Positions 53,173-64,000 of a stretch of 64,000 bases of DNA are shown piece by piece (the stretch's first letter is position 1; the number at the start of each line of letters is the position of its first letter). Where the stretch lies: NCBI RefSeq assembly GCF_003626635.1, contig NZ_RAZT01000003.1, positions 62,001 through 126,000 of the forward strand, in the 5' to 3' direction. Under the pieces are notes generated by a model that was given only the letters and a program-made list of their open reading frames with translations, was not told the origin of the DNA and made no database searches. Source of the DNA: Micromonospora musae. Lineage in GTDB: Bacteria > Actinomycetota > Actinomycetes > Mycobacteriales > Micromonosporaceae. The position numbers and the translations under genes were made by a program.

Positions 53173-53218
53173 TTGCGTTAATAGCAAGACGGACGTACGG
53201 TTTGGTTTGACGTACGGT
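53173..53218 (+). promoter_or_regulatory. Candidate acnA promoter with a direct repeat
   Basis: TTGCGT (53173-53178), 17-nt spacer, TACGGT (53196-53201) fit a promoter. GACGTACGGT occurs at 53192-53201 and again at 53209-53218, 17 bases apart, covering the -10 and start site, so a regulator could bind there. Confidence 0.45.
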
Positions 53219-53306
53219 GCCGGGTAAGTGTCGCCTAACTTCGGCGGCCCCCCTACCGGTGCGACAAACTGCTCAGGACACGGTCGCTGGTGTGAAGGAG
53301 TACGAC

Positions 53307-56147
<2,841 letters not shown>

Positions 56148-56265: not shown

Positions 56266-56868
56266 TCAGTCGGCCACGCGGCGCGCGTCGCGGGTCTTCA
56301 TGGCGTGCTCCAGCAGGGTGATGAGCACCTCCTTGCTGGACTCCCGCTGCCGGGCGTCGCATAGCAGCACCGGCACACCCGAGTCCAGGTTCAGCGCCGC
56401 CTGCACCTCGTCCAGCCGGTACTGCTTGGCCCCCTCGAAGCAGTTCACCGCCACCACGAAGGGCGTGCCCCGCCCCTCGAAGTAGTCGATGGAGGGGAAG
56501 CAGTCGGCCAACCTCCGGGTGTCGGCGAGCACCACCGCACCGATCGCGCCGAGCGCCAGCTCGTCCCAGACGAACCAGAACCGGTCCTGCCCCGGCGTAC
56601 CGAAGAGGTAGAGCACCAGGTCGTCGCTGATCGTGATGCGACCGAAGTCCATCGCGACGGTGGTGGTGCTCTTGCTCTCCACACCGGAGAGGTCGTCGAT
56701 GCCGACCCCGGACTCGGTCAGCACCTCCTCCGTACGCAACGGGCGTGTCTCGCTGACCGCGCCGACCATGGTGGTCTTGCCCACCCCGAACCCGCCGGCG
56801 ACCAGAATCTTGATCGCGGTGGGCAGTGGGGTGGCTCCCGCCGGCCGCTCAGAGGGCCCGTAGTCCAT
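56266..56868 (-). CDS. cvnD: Conservon small GTPase-like protein (CvnD)
   Basis: 200 residues. P-loop GGFGVGKTT at 25-33, then a switch-like FGTPGQDRFWFVWDEL (a DxPG-type motif as TPGQ) and VVAVNCFEGAKQYRLDEV in place of the NKxD guanine motif. These are bacterial Roc-family/MglA-like ATP/GTP-binding proteins that form a membrane complex with CvnA-C. ATG 56868 overlaps cvnC by 20 bases (in another frame), typical for conservons. Last gene of cvnABCD. Confidence 0.93.
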   Translation of the reverse strand: MDYGPSERPAGATPLPTAIKILVAGGFGVGKTTMVGAVSETRPLRTEEVLTESGVGIDDLSGVESKSTTTVAMDFGRITISDDLVLYLFGTPGQDRFWFVWDELALGAIGAVVLADTRRLADCFPSIDYFEGRGTPFVVAVNCFEGAKQYRLDEVQAALNLDSGVPVLLCDARQRESSKEVLITLLEHAMKTRDARRVAD

Positions 56869-57235
56869 TGATAACCGCCTCGAAAACACTGTTGTCGGGA
56901 AGCCCGGCCGAGGTGCGCGGCTCGCGGACCTGGACCAGGTTGCGGGCCACCAGATCACCCAGCAGGACCCGGATGGTGCCCACCGGGAGGTCCAGGTGGG
57001 CGGCGATCTCGGCGACGGACTGTATGCGCTGGCAGAGTCCCACGATCGCCACGTGCTCCGGCCCCAGGCCGATCTCCGCGCTCACGTCGGCACGGGTAGC
57101 CGTGACCAGCGAGATCAGGTCGAACGTGCCGGTGACCGGGCGGGCCCGGCCGCGCGTGACCGCGTACGGGCGCACGACCGGCCCGGCATGGTCGTCCACC
57201 CACTGCTGCTCCGCGGACTCCCCCTGCACGGTCAT
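56849..57235 (-). CDS. cvnC: Conservon DUF742 protein (CvnC)
   Basis: 128 residues. Family wording includes VVRPYAVTRGRARPV, DLISLVTATRA, IVGLCQRIQSVAEIAAHLDL and VRVLLGDL-type LPVGTIRVLLGDLVARNLVQ, which suggests a winged-helix-like fold. Part of the CvnA-D membrane-associated signalling complex. It begins 5 bases downstream of cvnB. Confidence 0.93.
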   Translation of the reverse strand: MTVQGESAEQQWVDDHAGPVVRPYAVTRGRARPVTGTFDLISLVTATRADVSAEIGLGPEHVAIVGLCQRIQSVAEIAAHLDLPVGTIRVLLGDLVARNLVQVREPRTSAGLPDNSVFEAVINGLRAL

Positions 57236-57240
57236 CGCGG

Positions 57241-57663
57241 CTACTTCTCGCCGGTCGACTGCTCGGCGGTCCGGGTCGGCGAGGCCACGTGCTTGCCGAC
57301 CCGGGTGACCAGCATCGCCATCTCGTAGGCGATCAGCCCGACGTCGGCGTCCTCGGTGGCCAGCACCGCGAGACAGGCGTTGCGCCCGGCGGCTGTGACG
57401 AAGAGGAACGAGGACTGCATCTCGATGATGGTCTGCTGTACCTGACCACCCCCGAACCGCTTCCCCGCACCCCGGGCCAGGCTCTGGATCCCGGCCGCCA
57501 TCGCGGCCAGGTGCTCACCGTCGTCCCGGCTGAGCCCCTGTGAGGAGGCCATCAACAGGCCGTCCGTCGAGAGCGCGACCGCATGTTCGGCCTGCTTCAC
57601 CCGGCCGACCAGGTCATCCAGCAACCACGTCAGGTCGGCACCCGATGCCGTCTTCTGGGCCAC
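57241..57663 (-). CDS. cvnB: Conservon Roadblock/LC7 protein (CvnB)
   Basis: 140 residues. Roadblock/LC7 fold with DLTWLLDDLVGRVKQAEHAV, LSTDGLLMASSQGL, MQSSFLFVTAAGRNACLAVL and YEMAMLVTRVGKHV. In this class the protein is thought to act as a GTPase-activating or adaptor partner of the CvnD G-protein. The GTG start follows GAGGACGA. Confidence 0.93.
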   Translation of the reverse strand: MAQKTASGADLTWLLDDLVGRVKQAEHAVALSTDGLLMASSQGLSRDDGEHLAAMAAGIQSLARGAGKRFGGGQVQQTIIEMQSSFLFVTAAGRNACLAVLATEDADVGLIAYEMAMLVTRVGKHVASPTRTAEQSTGEK

Positions 57664-57754
57664 TCGTCGTCCTCTTCTCCCACGGCTGATGTAGCCGTCT
57701 TCGTCTGGTGCTGACCGTTCCGTCCCGGGCGGACTTCCGCGCCGTCGGCACTGG

Positions 57755-60280
57755 TCAGGTCGTTTGCTGCTCGTCAGCGTCCGGGCCCGGCTCGGGCTCC
57801 GGCGCGTCGTCGTCGCCGAGCAGGCGCGCCGCCTCCGTCCGGCCCCGGCGGGTCCCCTTCTGGTACGAGCTCATCATCCGGCGCACCTGCTCGGGCTGCC
57901 GCACCATCTCCTCGTCCTCGTCAGCGACGGTCGCCGCGGGGTCGTCACGCAGCTCCGGCACGATGTTCGCCTGCCGGACGCGCACCGGCAGGCCGGAGTC
58001 CGTCTGCGGAGGCTCGGTCCGGGACGGAAGCGGACCACCCTCGGGCCGGGTGGGCGCCGGCGCGTCCGCCGCGGCGCGGGGCACGGCCAGCGGCAGCCCG
58101 GTCGGCACCGTCGGCCCCTCCAGCGCCGCTTGCTCCGGCACCCGTCGGGTACGGCTCGGCAGTCCCTCGGCGGTCGCCGGCCCGGACCGGGTCCGGGTGG
58201 GCAGCGAGGCTCCGGCGTCGTCGGCCTGACCGGCCGGCTCGGACACCTCCGGCTGCGGGGCGGGCGGTTCGGCGAGCGCGACCGGGGCCGACGGCTGGGC
58301 GACGGCCGGGGCGGAGGCCAGCGGCGTCGCGCCGGACGACTCGGCGGGTGCCCCGCCGGTGCGGGCGGCCGGCAGGCCACCGGAGATCTCCGGGTCGTCG
58401 CCCGCGTCGGTGACCAGGTCGATCGGGATGAGTACGACGGCGGTCGTGCCGCCGTACGCCGACTCCTTCAGCTGCACCTTGACACCGTGCCGCTCGGTCA
58501 ACCGGCTCACCACGTAGAGACCGAGCCGGGAGGCGTTCGCGAGGTTCAGTTCGGACTGATCGGTGATCCGGTCGTTGGCCGCCGCCAGGTCCTCCGGCGT
58601 CATTCCGAGGCCGCGGTCCTCGATCTCGACGGCGAAGCCGTTCGCCACCATCTGGCCCCGGACCTCGACGGTCGTGTTCGGCGGCGAGAACGACAGTCCG
58701 TTCTCGATCAGCTCGGCGAGCAGGTGGATGATGTCACCGACCGCCCGGCCGGCGAGCGACACCCGTCCGATCGGCAGCACGTTGACCCGGGTGTAGTCCT
58801 CGACCTCGGCGACCGCGCCGCGGATCACGTCCACCATCGGCACGTTGCGCCGCCAGGCACGACCGGGCGTGGAGCCGGAGAGCACGATCAGGTTCTCGGC
58901 GTTACGCCGCATCCGGGTGGCCAGGTGGTCGACCCGGAACAGGTCCTCGAGCTCCTCGGCGTCCTGCTCGCGCCGCTCCATCGCGTCCAGCAGGGTCAGC
59001 TGGCGGTGCACCAGGGCCTGCGTACGCCGGGCCAGGCTGAGGAAGACCTCGCGGACGCCGCGGCGCAGCTCGGCCTGCTCGACGGCGGTCCGGATCGCCG
59101 TCTCCTGCACGGCGTTGAAGGCCTTACCCACCTGGCCGATTTCGTCGTCGCCGAACTCGAGTGGGGGCGCCTCCTTGGCCACGTCGACCTCTTCGCCGTG
59201 GCCGAGCCGCTCCACCACGCTGGGCAGGCGCTCGTTGGCGAGGCGGAAGGCCGCCTCGCGCAGCCGCTCGAGCTGACGCAGCAGGGCGCGCGCCGTGGTG
59301 ATCGACACGATGATCGAGGCGACGACGGCGATCAGGCCGAGACCCGCGGCGAGCACCAGCCGCACGATGACCCCGATCGCGACCGGCATCGCGCGGGAGA
59401 CGACGTCCTCGCCGCCGGCGATGATGACGTCGCGCAGGCTCTGCTCGACGGGTGTGACGGCGCCGTCCCACTCGGCGGCCTGCACCGGTGGGCGTCCGGG
59501 CACGTCGCGCTCCCGGACGATCTCGTCCTCCAGGGCGCGGAACTTGCGGGACGCGTCGCCCGCGATCACCGCGTCGTAGCGCTCCCGGTCGACGCGGGCC
59601 AGGTCGACCGCCGCCTGCGAGACGGTGAACCGCTGCGCGCCGACGAGCTGGGCGAACTGGGCCTGCTCCGCGGCGGTGAGCCGGCCGGCGGCGAGCGCTC
59701 CGGTGAGCAGGGCGTCCTCCTGGGACATCAGCTCCCGGGCGCGGTTCAGGTCGATGAGCGCCGCGGTCTCCTGCGCGATCTGCCGATCGTCGAGACCGCC
59801 GAGCGCGTCGAAGACGTTGAAGATCGAGTCGATCACGCCGACGTACGACGTCATCGTGGTGGTGCGGTCGATGCTGCGGGCGTCCACGCCGGCCCGGGTC
59901 TCGTTCAGCCGGTCCAGGTCGGTGAGGAGGTCGTCGATGCGCAGCTCCAGCTGCGCGCTCGCCGGCACCTCGGTACGCCAGTCCCGTACCGACTCGCGGA
60001 ACGTCGCCGCGTAGCCGTCGGTGCGTCGCCGCTCCGCGGCCAGCTCCTCGAGCTTCGCCGCGTCCGGGCCGCCCAGGTAGGCCAGGGAGAGCCGGCGCTC
60101 CTTCTGCAGCTGCGTCAGCAGCGGGTCGCTCGGCTCGAAGACGCGGGCGTTCAGCGCCTGCACGCCGAGCAGGTTGAACCCGTCCCGGACGGTCACCCAC
60201 GCGGCGAAGGCCCAGAGCGCAACCAGCGAGACGAGCAGGGCAACGACTTTGGTACGGAGATTCGTACTGCGGGAACCCAT
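57755..60280 (-). CDS. cvnA: Conservon sensor histidine kinase-like protein (CvnA)
   Basis: 841 residues. Membrane helix 1 is near 12-34 (VVALLVSLVALWAFAAWVT). An extracytoplasmic nitrate/nitrite-sensor (NIT)-like helical domain spans about 35-300, and membrane helix 2 near 300-330 (VIVRLVLAAGLGLIAVVAS). A HAMP-like stretch and a kinase ATPase domain (IIHLLAELIENGLSFSPPNT, EDRGLGMTPEDL and YGGTTAVVLIP) follow. The last 170 residues are a disordered Pro-rich tail. ATG 60280 is near an AGGA. Leftward, first gene of cvnABCD with its own promoter; a cyclase gene ends 142 bases upstream. Confidence 0.93.
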   Translation of the reverse strand: MGSRSTNLRTKVVALLVSLVALWAFAAWVTVRDGFNLLGVQALNARVFEPSDPLLTQLQKERRLSLAYLGGPDAAKLEELAAERRRTDGYAATFRESVRDWRTEVPASAQLELRIDDLLTDLDRLNETRAGVDARSIDRTTTMTSYVGVIDSIFNVFDALGGLDDRQIAQETAALIDLNRARELMSQEDALLTGALAAGRLTAAEQAQFAQLVGAQRFTVSQAAVDLARVDRERYDAVIAGDASRKFRALEDEIVRERDVPGRPPVQAAEWDGAVTPVEQSLRDVIIAGGEDVVSRAMPVAIGVIVRLVLAAGLGLIAVVASIIVSITTARALLRQLERLREAAFRLANERLPSVVERLGHGEEVDVAKEAPPLEFGDDEIGQVGKAFNAVQETAIRTAVEQAELRRGVREVFLSLARRTQALVHRQLTLLDAMERREQDAEELEDLFRVDHLATRMRRNAENLIVLSGSTPGRAWRRNVPMVDVIRGAVAEVEDYTRVNVLPIGRVSLAGRAVGDIIHLLAELIENGLSFSPPNTTVEVRGQMVANGFAVEIEDRGLGMTPEDLAAANDRITDQSELNLANASRLGLYVVSRLTERHGVKVQLKESAYGGTTAVVLIPIDLVTDAGDDPEISGGLPAARTGGAPAESSGATPLASAPAVAQPSAPVALAEPPAPQPEVSEPAGQADDAGASLPTRTRSGPATAEGLPSRTRRVPEQAALEGPTVPTGLPLAVPRAAADAPAPTRPEGGPLPSRTEPPQTDSGLPVRVRQANIVPELRDDPAATVADEDEEMVRQPEQVRRMMSSYQKGTRRGRTEAARLLGDDDAPEPEPGPDADEQQTT

Positions 60281-60351
60281 CACACCGTCCTGGCCGGATA
60301 TCTGGTCATGTGCCCGAGCATGGGTATCGGCGCACAAATCGACACCGGCGC

Positions 60352-60380
60352 ACGCTAGCAGTGTCGGGTTCTTCACTCAA
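60352..60380 (-). promoter_or_regulatory. Promoter of cvnA
   Basis: On the minus strand TTGAGT (60375-60380), a 17-nt spacer and TAGCGT (60352-60357) make a well-formed housekeeping-type promoter about 72 bases before the cvnA ATG. It lets the conservon be expressed independently of the terpene genes upstream. Confidence 0.6.
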
Positions 60381-60422
60381 GCGGTCCTGATCATGACTGT
60401 GCGGACTACGCTCGGCCGCCGG

Positions 60423-62030
60423 TCAGTCGTCCACATCGGCCGAACGGAGGAGCCACCGGGCCGCCAGCACCGCTGCCTGCACGATCAGGGTCGGCCGGTA
60501 GAGATCCTTGTCGTGCCACAACTCCGGGCCGTCCTCATCGACATCCACTGTGGAGAGCCAGGATTCGGCGCGGGCGAGGGCGGCGGCGATCGGTGCGCTC
60601 CGGCGTTCCGCGGCGAGCAGCGTCTGCACCGCGTACGCGGTCTCCTCCGCGCTGCCCGCCCACCGACCCCAGGACCCGTCCGCCCGCTGACCGGCCAGCA
60701 CCCACGCCACCGCCCGGTCGACCGACTGCCGGGCGGCCTCGGTGCCGCCGTACTCGCTCAGCGCCGCCGCCGCACAGGAGGTGGCGTAGTACGGCGAGGC
60801 GTGCCACCGGTCCGGCCAGCGGCCGTCCGGCTCCTGCTGGTCGAGCAGCCAACGGGTCAGCCGCCGCACCGCGGACCCCAGCCAGGGCGTGGCCGGGCCG
60901 CCGTGGGGCAGCGACTGCCCGAGCGCGTCGAGCACGTGGGCGTTGGTGGTGACCGACGCGCCGTCCTCCCCCGGCCAGGTGCAGAAGTGCTCCCCCGTGT
61001 CGTACGGCCGCAGCACCATCGGATCGACCGGGTGGCCGAGCCGGGCGAGCGCGTAGAGGGTCACCGAGGTCGTGTCCGCGTCCGCCGGCAGGCCGGGTCC
61101 GGTGGGTGTGCCGGCCGGACCGAGGGCGGCGCGCAGCCCGGCGGTGAGCGCGGCGGGCACCCCGATCGGGACACCGGCCCGGGTCAGCGTGCCGAGTACC
61201 CAGGAGCGCTCGAAGACGGTGATCGGGCTGGCGCTGGGCACCGGTCCGCCGTACTGCCGGACCAGGTCCTCCAGGTAGGCCCGGCCCGGCTCCTCGGCGC
61301 CGGGCTCCGGGCCGAGCCAGGCGGCGGTCGCCGCCGGAGAGGCCCCCACCGTGCCCGGGCCGACCGGGCCGAACCCGGCGACCCGCCGCGCGGCCGGGCC
61401 GACCACCTCCAGCGCGTGCGCGAGCTTCTCCGGCAGCGGCCGGCCGCCCGCGAGCAGCATCCGGACCCCCGCCAGCCGGCGATGGTCCATCCCCTCGGGC
61501 AGGGGCAGCCGGGCCGCACGCCAGCGGGTGAGGCCCGGCCGGTCGCGCAGCGCGTCGAGGTTCTCGGCGACGAGTTCGGTCAGGGCGGGCACGATCAGAT
61601 CGGTAGCCGGCAGGTCGGGCGGTGGGGCGGAGGCCGGGCCGGTGAGCGCAGCGTGCAGCGCCCGGAGTCCCCTGTCGACGGCGTCGTCGATCCGGTCGCG
61701 GGTCGCCGGGCCGCCGTCGTCGCGACGCAGGGTCGTCAGCAGCGCCTCAGTGGCGCTGAGCGTCGGCACCAGGGCGTAGCCGTCCGGACCGCCCCAGGCG
61801 CCGTCGGGACGCTGCCGACGCAGCAGCCAGTCGATCCGCTCGTCGTGGCCCGCGAGCCAGGGCGCCAGACTGACCAGGCGCCCGGTCTCGTAGACCGACG
61901 GTGAGGAGCGTCCGGACGGCGCCGCGAGCATCTCCGCCACCAGATCGGACGCCGGTGACCGCTCCGCCACCGCCGCGCCGGCCTGACCTCCACGCTCGGG
62001 TCGGGACAGGTCGTACGAGGGCGCGCTCAC
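60423..62030 (-). CDS. Class II terpene cyclase (diterpene-cyclase type)
   Basis: 535 residues. QW-type repeats of the beta/gamma cyclase fold are seen (QQEPDGRWPDRWHASPYYA, GQRADGSWGRWAGSAEETA and a DGAWGGPDGYALVP near the N-terminus). The acid motif is D317-A-D319-T-T, the DxDTT variant of DxDD known from bacterial halimadienyl/copalyl-type diphosphate synthases. It should protonate and cyclise a polyprenyl diphosphate, most likely GGPP. The GTG start forms a GTGA overlap with the class I synthase stop, so the two enzymes are made together. Confidence 0.85.
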   Translation of the reverse strand: MSAPSYDLSRPERGGQAGAAVAERSPASDLVAEMLAAPSGRSSPSVYETGRLVSLAPWLAGHDERIDWLLRRQRPDGAWGGPDGYALVPTLSATEALLTTLRRDDGGPATRDRIDDAVDRGLRALHAALTGPASAPPPDLPATDLIVPALTELVAENLDALRDRPGLTRWRAARLPLPEGMDHRRLAGVRMLLAGGRPLPEKLAHALEVVGPAARRVAGFGPVGPGTVGASPAATAAWLGPEPGAEEPGRAYLEDLVRQYGGPVPSASPITVFERSWVLGTLTRAGVPIGVPAALTAGLRAALGPAGTPTGPGLPADADTTSVTLYALARLGHPVDPMVLRPYDTGEHFCTWPGEDGASVTTNAHVLDALGQSLPHGGPATPWLGSAVRRLTRWLLDQQEPDGRWPDRWHASPYYATSCAAAALSEYGGTEAARQSVDRAVAWVLAGQRADGSWGRWAGSAEETAYAVQTLLAAERRSAPIAAALARAESWLSTVDVDEDGPELWHDKDLYRPTLIVQAAVLAARWLLRSADVDD

Positions 62031-62920
62031 CGGCTGCCCCAGAAGTCGGTGGAGCCGTAGAAACCGCTCGTGTAACCGAGCTGTCGGGTCAGGTAGGTCG
62101 CCTCCCGGGGGCACCGGTCGGCGAGGTCCGCGAGCGTCTTACGGCAGCTCTGCGTCAACTCGGCTGCCCGCCGCGCCACCTCGGTCGGGTCACCGACCAG
62201 GGTGATGGCGTTCAGATCGCCCCACTCCCGGTCCCGCTCGTGGGTGGCCAGGTCGTTGACCAGGCGCAGCACCTGCTGCACCTGGTCGCTGGCGGCGACC
62301 AGCTCGGGCAGCCGGCGGTGCACGTCGGCGTCTCCGGTACGGATCCAGTGCGCCACGTTGACCACGGTGCAGGCGAGATTGTCCGCGTTGTCGAGGTACT
62401 CCTCGTAGCTCGGCGGCTGCCCGGCCGCCGTCGACTCACGCCAGTCGTACTCGCGCGCCATCGCCGCCAGGGTGCGGTGGACCGCCTCCCGCCACAGCGC
62501 GCGGGCCTCGGGATAGCCCGGCGACCGGGTCAACTCGTCGCACAGTTCGGCCAGGAACCGTCCCAGCGGATCCTCGGCGGCCGGGGCGGCGCCGTCGACG
62601 ACGGCGAGCGTCTCCGCCGTGACCCGGTCGACCTCCTCGCGCGACTTCGCGAGGTAGTCGACCTGGAAGTCGAGCGCGAAGCCCCAGAGCACCATCCGGT
62701 TGGCGAACCTCAACTCCTCCACCGTGCACCACGGGGAGCTGAAGGCCATCGCCATCGCGATGCTGCTGTACAGCGCCGGGTCGAACGGCCGCGCGGAGAA
62801 GAGCTCGGAGTGCTCGGCGGCCCGCCGTTGGAGGTCACGCTGCCCCTTCGCGGCGAGCGCGCAGATGCGGCCCTGCTCGGCCGCGAGGGACAGGTCGTCG
62901 TCAGATCGGTGCATCTCCAT
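62027..62920 (-). CDS. Class I terpene synthase-like protein
   Basis: 297 residues. The metal-binding region near 84-88 is DFQVD rather than DDxxD, and the second motif is N222-D-x2-T226-x3-D230 (VNDLATHERD), an NSE-type triad ending in Asp. The all-helical composition and length fit bacterial class I synthases; the length is short, and the atypical motifs mean activity needs testing. It probably ionises the diphosphate made by the class II cyclase. ATG 62920 lies 2 bases after the P450 stop (TGAGGATG). Alternative start ATG 62914. Confidence 0.75.
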   Translation of the reverse strand: MEMHRSDDDLSLAAEQGRICALAAKGQRDLQRRAAEHSELFSARPFDPALYSSIAMAMAFSSPWCTVEELRFANRMVLWGFALDFQVDYLAKSREEVDRVTAETLAVVDGAAPAAEDPLGRFLAELCDELTRSPGYPEARALWREAVHRTLAAMAREYDWRESTAAGQPPSYEEYLDNADNLACTVVNVAHWIRTGDADVHRRLPELVAASDQVQQVLRLVNDLATHERDREWGDLNAITLVGDPTEVARRAAELTQSCRKTLADLADRCPREATYLTRQLGYTSGFYGSTDFWGSR

Positions 62921-62922
62921 CC

Positions 62923-64000
62923 TCAGGCCGCGTCCGCCGTGCTGGTGAGGGTCAGCTCCACCCGCCTGCGGGGCCGCAGGGCGGCGGCGAGGCGCAGCCC
63001 GGGTACGCCGGATCGGCGCAGCCGGAACCGGTAACGGCTCAGCATGGTGGCGAGGATCAGCTGCGCCTCCAGGTAGAAGAGGTACATGCCGAGGCACTGG
63101 TGCGGGCCACCCCCGAACGGGAAGTGGGCGTAGCGGTGCCGGGCGCGGATCCGTTCCGGGGTGAACCGGTCGGGGTCGAACTCGTCCGGCCGGTCCCAGA
63201 ACGCCGTCATCCGCTGGGTGATCAGCGGGCTGGCGACCATCGTTGCGCCGGCCTCCACCTGCACCCCGTCGATGACGTCGTCGGCGACCGCACGCCGCGG
63301 GATGATCCAGCCGATCGGATAGAGCCGCAGCAGCTCGTCCAGGACCATCCGCGTGTAGGGCAGCTGGTTGAGGTGCTCCCGCTTGACGGGCCCGTCGCCG
63401 ACCACCCGCGCGATCTCGTCGTAGAGCCGCTCGGCGACGTCGGGACGGTCGTCGAGGTGCGGCCAGAGCCAGGTGAGCACGTTGATGGTGGTCTCCGTGG
63501 TGGCCGCGAACATGGCCACCGTGTCGTTGCGTACCTGCTGCTCGCTGAGCTGCCGACCGTCCTCGGTACGCGCCTGCCAGAGCGTGGAGATGACATCGTC
63601 TCCCTCGTCGGCCGTCGCCTTGGACGCGCGCACGATCGGCAGCAGGACGTCGTCCACGACCTTCTTCGCCCGCCGGAACGGCCGGTCGCCCGGCATCGGC
63701 AGCGACAGCGGCGCGAACGGCACGACGATGCGGGGAATGACGGCGGTGGCGATGACGTCCTGCGCGTCGACCACCCGCATCGCGTCCGGTACGGAGATCT
63801 TCTCGCCGAAGAGCACCTTCATGATGGCTCGACACACGATGCGGGTCTGCTCGACTCCGATGTCGACGGTGCGGCCGTCCCGGGACGGCTCGTCGAGCTC
63901 GTCGACGGCCTGCCCGATCGCCTCCGCCATCCCGTCGACCAGCGCCTCGACGCGCTTGGCGGTGAACATCGGCTGGAGCATTCGCCGGCTGGCCGACCAG
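62923..64000 (-). CDS. Cytochrome P450 (N-terminus outside window)
   Basis: At least 359 residues; the reading frame is open at base 64000 (WSASRRMLQPMFT at the edge). I-helix oxygen motif AMFAATTETTINVLTW, K-helix ExxR in MVLDELLRLYP, PERF-type FDPDRFTPERI and the heme loop FPFGGGPHQCLGMYLFY with the thiolate Cys are all intact. Expected to oxidise the terpene skeleton. First visible gene of the P450-terpene synthase-cyclase run. Confidence 0.93.
   Translation of the reverse strand, partial: WSASRRMLQPMFTAKRVEALVDGMAEAIGQAVDELDEPSRDGRTVDIGVEQTRIVCRAIMKVLFGEKISVPDAMRVVDAQDVIATAVIPRIVVPFAPLSLPMPGDRPFRRAKKVVDDVLLPIVRASKATADEGDDVISTLWQARTEDGRQLSEQQVRNDTVAMFAATTETTINVLTWLWPHLDDRPDVAERLYDEIARVVGDGPVKREHLNQLPYTRMVLDELLRLYPIGWIIPRRAVADDVIDGVQVEAGATMVASPLITQRMTAFWDRPDEFDPDRFTPERIRARHRYAHFPFGGGPHQCLGMYLFYLEAQLILATMLSRYRFRLRRSGVPGLRLAAALRPRRRVELTLTSTADAA

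Follow-up and report, generated by a model that had tools for sequence, protein, structure and literature searches.

The window analysed here, a 64,000-nucleotide stretch of the 7.07-Mb genome of Micromonospora musae (C3:62001-126000), carries at its right-hand end seven contiguous genes read leftward (minus strand) in the order P450, class I terpene synthase, class II diterpene cyclase, cvnA, cvnB, cvnC and cvnD. A first-pass annotation, made from the sequence letters, had proposed these seven consecutive genes as a terpenoid pathway joined to a conservon, and all of them were confirmed in the order and on the strand given there. The comparison of related loci presented below strongly supports the view that biosynthesis and signalling belong to a single system here. 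We consider it fairly likely that the seven genes constitute one conserved module, the diterpenoid product of which is a signal sensed by CvnA.

The cytochrome P450 gene extends past the window end: its 3′ part lies at 62923..64000 (PF00067, E 4e-70), and the full gene, encoding 459 aa, occupies L002:7923-9302 (L numbers denote individual loci). The predicted protein contains the heme motif FGGGPHQCLG and an ELLR motif. The class I terpene synthase gene (62027..62920; 297 aa) matches PF19086 (Terpene_syn_C_2), and the best solved relative of its product is Sat1646 (PDB 7e4n; E 4.3e-85). The class II diterpene cyclase gene (60423..62030; 535 aa) encodes an SQHop_cyclase_C protein whose homology to the closest solved relative, PtmT2 (5bp8; E 6.7e-117), spans most of its length; Tpn2 (7xkx) and Rv3377c (6vpt) are homologous to a similar extent. 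Alignment of class II proteins placed the motif DADTT, encoded at 61068..61082, at the DxDD position. The P450 and class I genes are separated by 2 nt (stop-GG-ATG; TGAGGATG), the class I and class II genes overlap by 4 nt (-4) at a GTGA, and 142 nt lie between the class II gene and the ATG of cvnA. The tight coupling reported in the first-pass annotation thus agrees with the measured distances.

The remaining four genes show the features and canonical order of a conservon. CvnA (57755..60280; 841 aa; an alternative GTG start is possible at 60376) is a histidine kinase-like membrane sensor in which NIT (E 1.9e-46) and HATPase_c (E 1.5e-13) exceeded the cut-off and HAMP fell below it. Its NIT sensor domain (approximately residues 41-290; 59411..60160) lies between two hydrophobic segments, residues 7-33 and 292-335, and is followed by the HAMP/kinase core (residues 336-625; 58406..59275). 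The other components are a roadblock protein, CvnB (57241..57663; PF03259, Robl_LC7, E 4.8e-27), a DUF742 protein, CvnC (56849..57235; PF05331, E 1e-35), and a small P-loop GTPase-like protein, CvnD (56266..56868; PF03029, E 2.6e-33), with the P-loop GGFGVGKTT. The cvnA and cvnB genes are 91 nt apart and cvnB and cvnC 5 nt apart, whereas cvnC and cvnD overlap (-20 nt). GTPase activity of CvnD and a signalling output of the conservon are predicted. The predicted model of the NIT domain is all-helical (predicted local distance difference test mostly >85) and matches the fold of NasR (4akk; template modelling scores 0.57/0.61), although sequence similarity is weak.

To the left of the block lies a convergent aconitase gene (53217..56147, plus strand; PF00330, E 3.6e-165), a conserved landmark downstream of cvnD but outside the system. 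On the other side, 963 nt upstream of the P450 gene, is a RIO kinase gene. Most loci of the genus are placed between these two genes. A class II gene was found in 136 of the 151 genus genomes (window included) and aconitase in all 151. One class II locus per genome was fetched from 110 of the 135 other positive genomes; in 109 of these 110 loci a conservon adjoins the class II gene. The canonical downstream conservon is present in 107, of which 103 also carry the P450 and class I genes and four the class II gene alone; loci L074 and L107 are rearranged. The window's own genome contains a single PF03936 match and five DUF742 genes over the cut-off, and given these numbers, together with the 107 of 110 loci that keep the arrangement, the joining of the seven genes lies far beyond chance.

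The neighbourhood comparison across Micromonosporaceae that the first-pass annotation had recommended extended this result to other genera. A search of 200 genomes of the family identified the class II gene in 64 of them, representing 13 of 44 genera when Micromonospora itself is counted, and one or more cvn genes are close by in all 20 loci fetched from other genera (19 genomes, 11 genera). In 16 of these, matches to all four cvn genes lie downstream on the same strand; one of the 16, L202, has only a short piece of cvnA. Among 394 genomes of the class the gene was detected in 20, including 17 of one other family. Twelve of these 17, from 7 genera, were tested, and every one has a cvnB gene downstream of the class II gene and in the same orientation, 2.4-3.7 kb away in eleven cases and 0.7 kb away in the twelfth. 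The DxDD-type class II relatives L012, L013 and L055, which served as a control, have no conservon.

Genome position is not constant. In 17 fetched stretches (L069, L074, L079, L080, L106-L116, L146 and L153) the enzyme trio occurs together with a more diverged conservon, and neither RIO kinase nor aconitase is near; in L155 this alternate-lineage conservon occupies the usual place between RIO kinase and aconitase. One of the 17, L079, encodes a class I protein 98% identical to Sat1646 and has its conservon directly after the trio; the RIO kinase-aconitase locus of the same genome (L101) contains no conservon. The enzymes and the conservon therefore stay together across two families and several genome positions.

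Variation along the operon was compared in a main set of 91 operons at the RIO kinase-aconitase site, with the kinase core defined as CvnA residues 330-625 and the NIT region as residues 41-310. This set leaves out the 18 alternate-lineage operons, four duplicates of named strains (L046, L126-L128), the truncated L011, L068 (no cvn genes), and L141, L159, L164 and L173 (no P450 or class I gene). Mean identities are 63.7% for the P450, 60.2% for the class I and 56.4% for the class II enzyme, and 51.0% for the NIT region, versus 89.7% for the kinase core, 87-93% for cvnB-D, 92.5% for aconitase and 79-96% for the TetR/HAD/RIO flanks. Distances between NIT regions correlate at 0.90 with those of each of the three enzymes, at 0.37 with those of the kinase core of the same protein and at 0.23 with those of aconitase. 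The partial Mantel correlation between NIT and the enzyme mean is 0.943 (0 of 2000 permutations), with a flank index that included the kinase core, which depressed the partial correlation of the core itself (0.10); with the core removed from the index, the values are 0.88-0.90 for NIT and the enzymes and 0.22 for NIT and the kinase core. The C-terminal tail of CvnA, which is more variable than NIT (36% identity), follows the backbone (partial correlation with NIT of 0.27), and the pattern is therefore not simply one of fast-evolving regions correlating with each other.

Exchange of the sensor was accompanied by exchange of the enzymes. Among 293 pairs with close flanks (89-98% mean identity of flank proteins), 120 are swapped in both parts, 173 in neither and none is mixed, where swapped means <65% identity of the sensor and a mean of <70% for the enzymes. 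A stricter cut left 55 pairs, 15 of them swapped in both parts and 40 kept in both, again with none mixed. The 12 NIT types require 24 changes on the midpoint-rooted backbone tree (the least possible being 11), as against a mean of 58 for shuffled labels. Agreement between sensor type and cassette type, expressed as the adjusted Rand index, is 0.76-0.95 across thresholds, and 0.34-0.49 for the kinase core.

The pairing recurs outside the main set. In 17 of the 18 alternate-lineage operons (L074 was dropped by hand and L155 retained), the NIT-enzyme correlation is 0.96 (0 of 2000 permutations). In other genera it is 0.83 (0 of 2000 permutations) across 13 of the 20 family loci, five having been omitted as lacking a gene in the search and two (L202, L205) by hand. 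With the rest held fixed, the P450, whose gene is the farthest from cvnA, tracks NIT better than does its neighbour, the class I synthase, in the 91 operons (0.58 versus 0.19), in the 30 other operons (0.62 versus 0.49) and in all 121 pooled (0.50 versus 0.33). The CvnA sensor domain thus co-segregates with the enzymes.

The boundaries of the exchanged segment were located by profiling DNA identity along four pairs, all selected as swapped. As far as the gap between the RIO kinase and P450 genes, identity is mostly 90-98%; it is 35-60% within this gap and 55-77% across the P450 and cyclase genes and the greater part of the sensor. Values of mostly 90-98% are regained from approximately the second membrane helix of CvnA through cvnD. 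In 109 swapped pairs with a kinase distance <0.08, the change point within CvnA has its median at residue 305 (5-95%: 295-369), the helix spanning residues 292-335. It is the NIT domain that is exchanged with the enzymes, and the HAMP/kinase core is conserved and follows the backbone. Chimeric CvnA proteins were found in L163, L070 and L151, in which an alternate-lineage NIT domain is fused to a kinase core of resident type. Their NIT domains are 75, 72 and 74% identical, respectively, to the alternate lineage, versus 51, 57 and 58% to the nearest other resident type, and their kinase cores are 95, 95 and 92% identical to resident cores, versus 80, 80 and 79%. The enzymes of these operons lean to the alternate lineage, clearly in L163 and slightly in L070 and L151.

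The co-inheritance of enzymes and sensor suggests the following mechanism. The substrate, geranylgeranyl diphosphate (GGPP), would come from genes located elsewhere in the genome; the class II enzyme would cyclise it to a copalyl-type diphosphate, which the class I enzyme would convert to a diterpene hydrocarbon to be oxidised by the P450. The lipophilic product would then exit the cell and bind the NIT domain that CvnA exposes to the outside, either on the producing cell or on its neighbours. Ligand-bound CvnA may change its action on CvnB and CvnC, and hence the GTP/GDP state of the Ras-like CvnD, altering gene expression; action of CvnA via CvnB and CvnC on CvnD has been proposed for conservons (PMC8510531, PMC13343842). 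That NIT varies with the P450 is consistent with the ligand being the fully processed, oxidised compound. The first-pass annotation had left the direction of control between conservon and diterpenoid open; we infer from the sensor domain that control of the conservon by the diterpenoid is the better supported of the two. Each sensor is predicted to respond to its cognate product and not to others. The outcome would be a strain-typed signal by which cells sense themselves. Whether strain-type-specific diterpenoids are pheromones in Micromonospora and related genera, with one diterpenoid and its matching NIT receptor encoded per cassette, such that a swap of the cassette onto the conserved kinase/Ras-like GTPase core changes the communication group, we regard as evenly poised.

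Several observations weigh against the diterpenoid being the signal of CvnA. The solved NIT homologue, NasR, is a nitrate regulatory protein. At the thresholds used, 107 of 4095 pairs are discordant, and the pairwise counts are mutually non-independent. In other genera the NIT domain also correlates with the kinase core and with cvnB-D (0.66-0.77), which makes for a weaker contrast, and in the pooled 121 operons the correlation with NIT is slightly higher for the class II gene, which adjoins cvnA (0.55), than for the P450 (0.50). In L165 and L168 the whole of cvnA, beyond NIT, is nearest to the alternate lineage, and block recombination can by itself make neighbouring genes co-segregate. L068 has the trio without an adjoining conservon, though the same genome has a conservon elsewhere (L103). 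Conservons without terpene genes, whose occurrence in relatives the first-pass annotation had named as evidence against a functional tie, do exist at the RIO kinase-aconitase locus, so that this objection holds in part and a conservon can exist there on its own: among 14 genomes in which the trio lies at another place, 13 retain three or more cvn genes at this locus but no cyclases (one of them, L124, with a P450), and of 15 genomes negative for the class II gene six have a conservon at this site (in the others, cvnC and cvnD only in one, no cvn gene in seven, and a contig end too early in one). Gene neighbourhood alone is therefore insufficient to settle the functional tie.

The explanation that competes best with a diterpenoid signal is that the conservon is a cluster-situated regulator that turns on the diterpene genes in response to some other cue, and that co-variation arises only because homologous recombination between the conserved flanks exchanges the whole variable block in one event. 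Control of specialised metabolism by a conservon has a precedent in cvn8 of S. coelicolor (PMC8510531), the swap boundaries fall in conserved sequence on both sides, and both L165/L168 and the slightly better tracking of NIT by the gene next to cvnA in the pooled operons are as such recombination would have them. It leaves unexplained why a diverse sensor domain is attached to a uniform kinase core, why the most distant gene, that of the P450, tracks NIT more closely than its neighbour does, and why the pairing reappears beyond this genus and with a second conservon lineage. Linkage alone is disfavoured because of this recurrence, the P450-NIT relationship and the chimeric CvnA proteins, and we judge the explanation rather unlikely. 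An antimicrobial product, with CvnA as a self-immunity sensor switching on protection, would account for the co-segregation equally well; however, the window has no room for a transporter or resistance gene between the P450 gene and cvnD (the search was confined to the block), and enzyme-free conservons persist, which makes this improbable. That the genes are neighbours through shared ancestry only, with no functional tie, is suggested by the single position of most genus loci, from RIO-type kinase to aconitase, yet enzymes and conservon also occur together at other positions, with the gene order rearranged (L074, L107), and in further genera and a second family, and we consider this account very improbable. 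Hardly credible at all is the reading of the P450 as a CvnE-type conservon accessory with incidental cyclases (the first-pass annotation had noted that some Streptomyces conservons include a P450): a P450 beside a conservon is a known arrangement (PMC13343842) and two loci (L124, L089) have this pair without cyclases, but CvnE-type P450s overwhelmingly occur with CvnA proteins devoid of a sensory domain (PMC13343842), this CvnA carries NIT, and just 2 nt separate the end of the P450 gene from the start codon of the class I gene. The P450 was accordingly rejected as CvnE; it belongs to the diterpene pathway and is of the Salinispora terp1 type.

The three enzymes are predicted to make an oxidised labdane-related diterpenoid. 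In the class II protein an Asp occupies the position that separates clerodane- from labdane-forming enzymes in Tpn2 and PtmT2 (PMC9814783), and the terp1-type class II protein of L079 also has DADTT; on both grounds a copalyl-type intermediate is predicted. In an alignment of 139 class II proteins, which omits the DxDD-type L012, L013 and L055, the central Asp of DADTT is present in all 139 and the Thr at the fourth position in 137. The salinisporal enzyme SaCPS of terp1 is reported to make copalyl diphosphate (CPP) (PMC9814573). DADTT as a mark of sesquiterpene (drimenyl) or halimane cyclases was considered and rejected, since the terp1-type protein of L079 has it and SaCPS is reported to make CPP; the open-access literature yielded nothing on drimenyl diphosphate synthase together with DXDTT.

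The class I protein keeps both metal-binding motifs, DFQVD and NDLATHERD, as does Sat1646 (D..D and NDxx(S/T)xxx(E/D), as defined in PMC9814573). It has Leu at the position of Tyr183 and Tyr at that of Tyr288, and thus lacks the Tyr183-Tyr288 dyad leading to isopimara-8,15-diene. As Leu replaces the catalytic base Tyr183, the product of the window enzyme is predicted to differ from that of Sat1646.

Across the main set, the predicted chemistry goes with sensor type. Gly occupies the labdane/clerodane position in all 15 operons of sensor types 1 and 2, and Asp in all 76 others; this residue is uniform in 12 of 12 NIT types, and the residue at the Tyr183 position of the class I enzyme in 11 of 12. 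Gly in place of Asp was also noted in L081-L085, L074, L163 and their relatives. These Gly-type loci are predicted to form a clerodane-type branch within the same operon family.

The nearest known pathway is Salinispora terp1/sat (SaDTS or Sat1646, SaCPS or Sat1645, and CYP1051A1), which like the window has the three enzyme types side by side. The class I proteins are homologous (E 4e-85) and DADTT is common to the window and the terp1-type L079, but the window class I protein is only ~50% identical to that of L079, and the two loci differ in genome position and conservon lineage. Sat1646 comes from a Salinispora cluster near-identical to terp1, which makes isopimara-8,15-dien-19-ol; fermentations of the sat strain yielded no detected diterpenoid (PMC9814573). 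Judging from the residues described above, the window product is probably a different compound from this alcohol. In the available extract of PMC9814573 on the sat cluster no mention of a conservon was found. PtmT2 shares the Asp at the labdane-forming position with the window class II protein; PtmT2 and Tpn2 have DxDD where the window has DADTT and Rv3377c aligns with DCDTT.

With other conservons the window shares the four core proteins, their canonical order and a NIT-type CvnA. It differs in the joined diterpene pathway and in a polymorphic sensor domain that is co-inherited with the enzymes. NasR is a transcription antiterminator, whereas the hypervariable NIT domain of CvnA is flanked by two predicted membrane segments. 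According to a 2026 paper, the NIT domains of CvnA proteins probably sense something other than nitrate/nitrite, a point it describes as untested (PMC13343842).

In cassettes of the ComQXP type, biosynthetic genes and the sensor domain of the receptor are exchanged together and the kinase core is conserved; in ComQXP itself the variation stops inside the sensor half of ComP. The same is observed here, where the enzymes and the sensor domain are exchanged together and the kinase core is conserved, the mark of a polymorphic signal/receptor cassette. The ComQXP pherotype locus of Bacillus subtilis likewise combines signal-making genes, among them an isoprenyl transferase, with a sensor kinase in one highly polymorphic locus that defines communication groups (PMC4408185, PMC4008528). 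The window differs in having a diterpenoid pathway and a G-protein system, with no peptide and no homologous signal-making parts, and its specificity is predicted. The Pfam matches found for the seven proteins include neither the ComQ isoprenyl transferase nor the ComX pre-peptide, and membership in a homologous ComQXPA family was therefore rejected.

In the open-access literature the combination of a conservon with terpene biosynthesis was not found among the papers listed (in the passages of one paper with both terms these occur solely in the reference list, and the titles of the others concern different subjects), and no description of a ComQXP-like signal logic with a Ras-like GTPase switch was encountered there. 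Subscription papers, including the original terp1 paper, lay outside the scope of this search, so absence of the conservon-terpene link from print is not established. For conservon sensors, the present comparison gives one candidate ligand per strain type. If the proposed role is true, this would be the first identification of the ligand class of a conservon, bacterial diterpenoids would count as self-signals, and a role would follow for widespread but silent diterpene clusters.

Some further features of individual loci were recorded. In L141, L159, L164 and L173 the class II gene stands alone before the conservon, and no P450 or class I gene was found between RIO kinase and cvnA. In L124 and L089 a P450 gene directly precedes the conservon at the RIO kinase-aconitase locus and no cyclase was found; L089 has an additional open frame that reads like a short-chain dehydrogenase/reductase (not searched). 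At L102, L104, L105, L117, L119, L121 and L122, cvnA or cvnC was undetected (tblastn, E 1e-6); resident conservons in genomes with the trio elsewhere may be decaying. Genome G133 combines an enzyme-free conservon (L103), the sensor of which is 77-80% identical to that of the nearest operons, with a trio elsewhere without a conservon (L068), possibly a receptor-only (listener) state. In small genomes of 5.1-5.9 Mb (L088, L092, L094, L095, L097, L098, L100, L101) the RIO kinase and aconitase genes are ~0.5 kb apart with no conservon between them.

The closest named proteins are those of Micromonospora musae (98% identity for the class I synthase and 99% for CvnA over residues 1-345). The first-pass annotation had advised looking for a GGPP synthase gene just beyond base 64000, but none adjoins the block: the genes there encode the RIO kinase, a HAD hydrolase, a CN hydrolase and a TetR regulator. 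Four polyprenyl synthase genes are present elsewhere in the genome, the one on the same contig being ~247 kb distant.

A promoter/terminator scan gave 0 matches. Among sequences upstream of the P450 gene, the best shared 12-mers occur in 8 of 21, compared with 6 in one shuffle (1500 shuffled words scored). A recurring stretch resembling ATGGCATGCTCG was noticed ~100 nt 5′ of the P450 start in several loci (e.g. L004, L005, L048 and L053); 14-mers of this kind occur in 6 of 21 sequences, versus 3 in one shuffle (1500 shuffled words scored).

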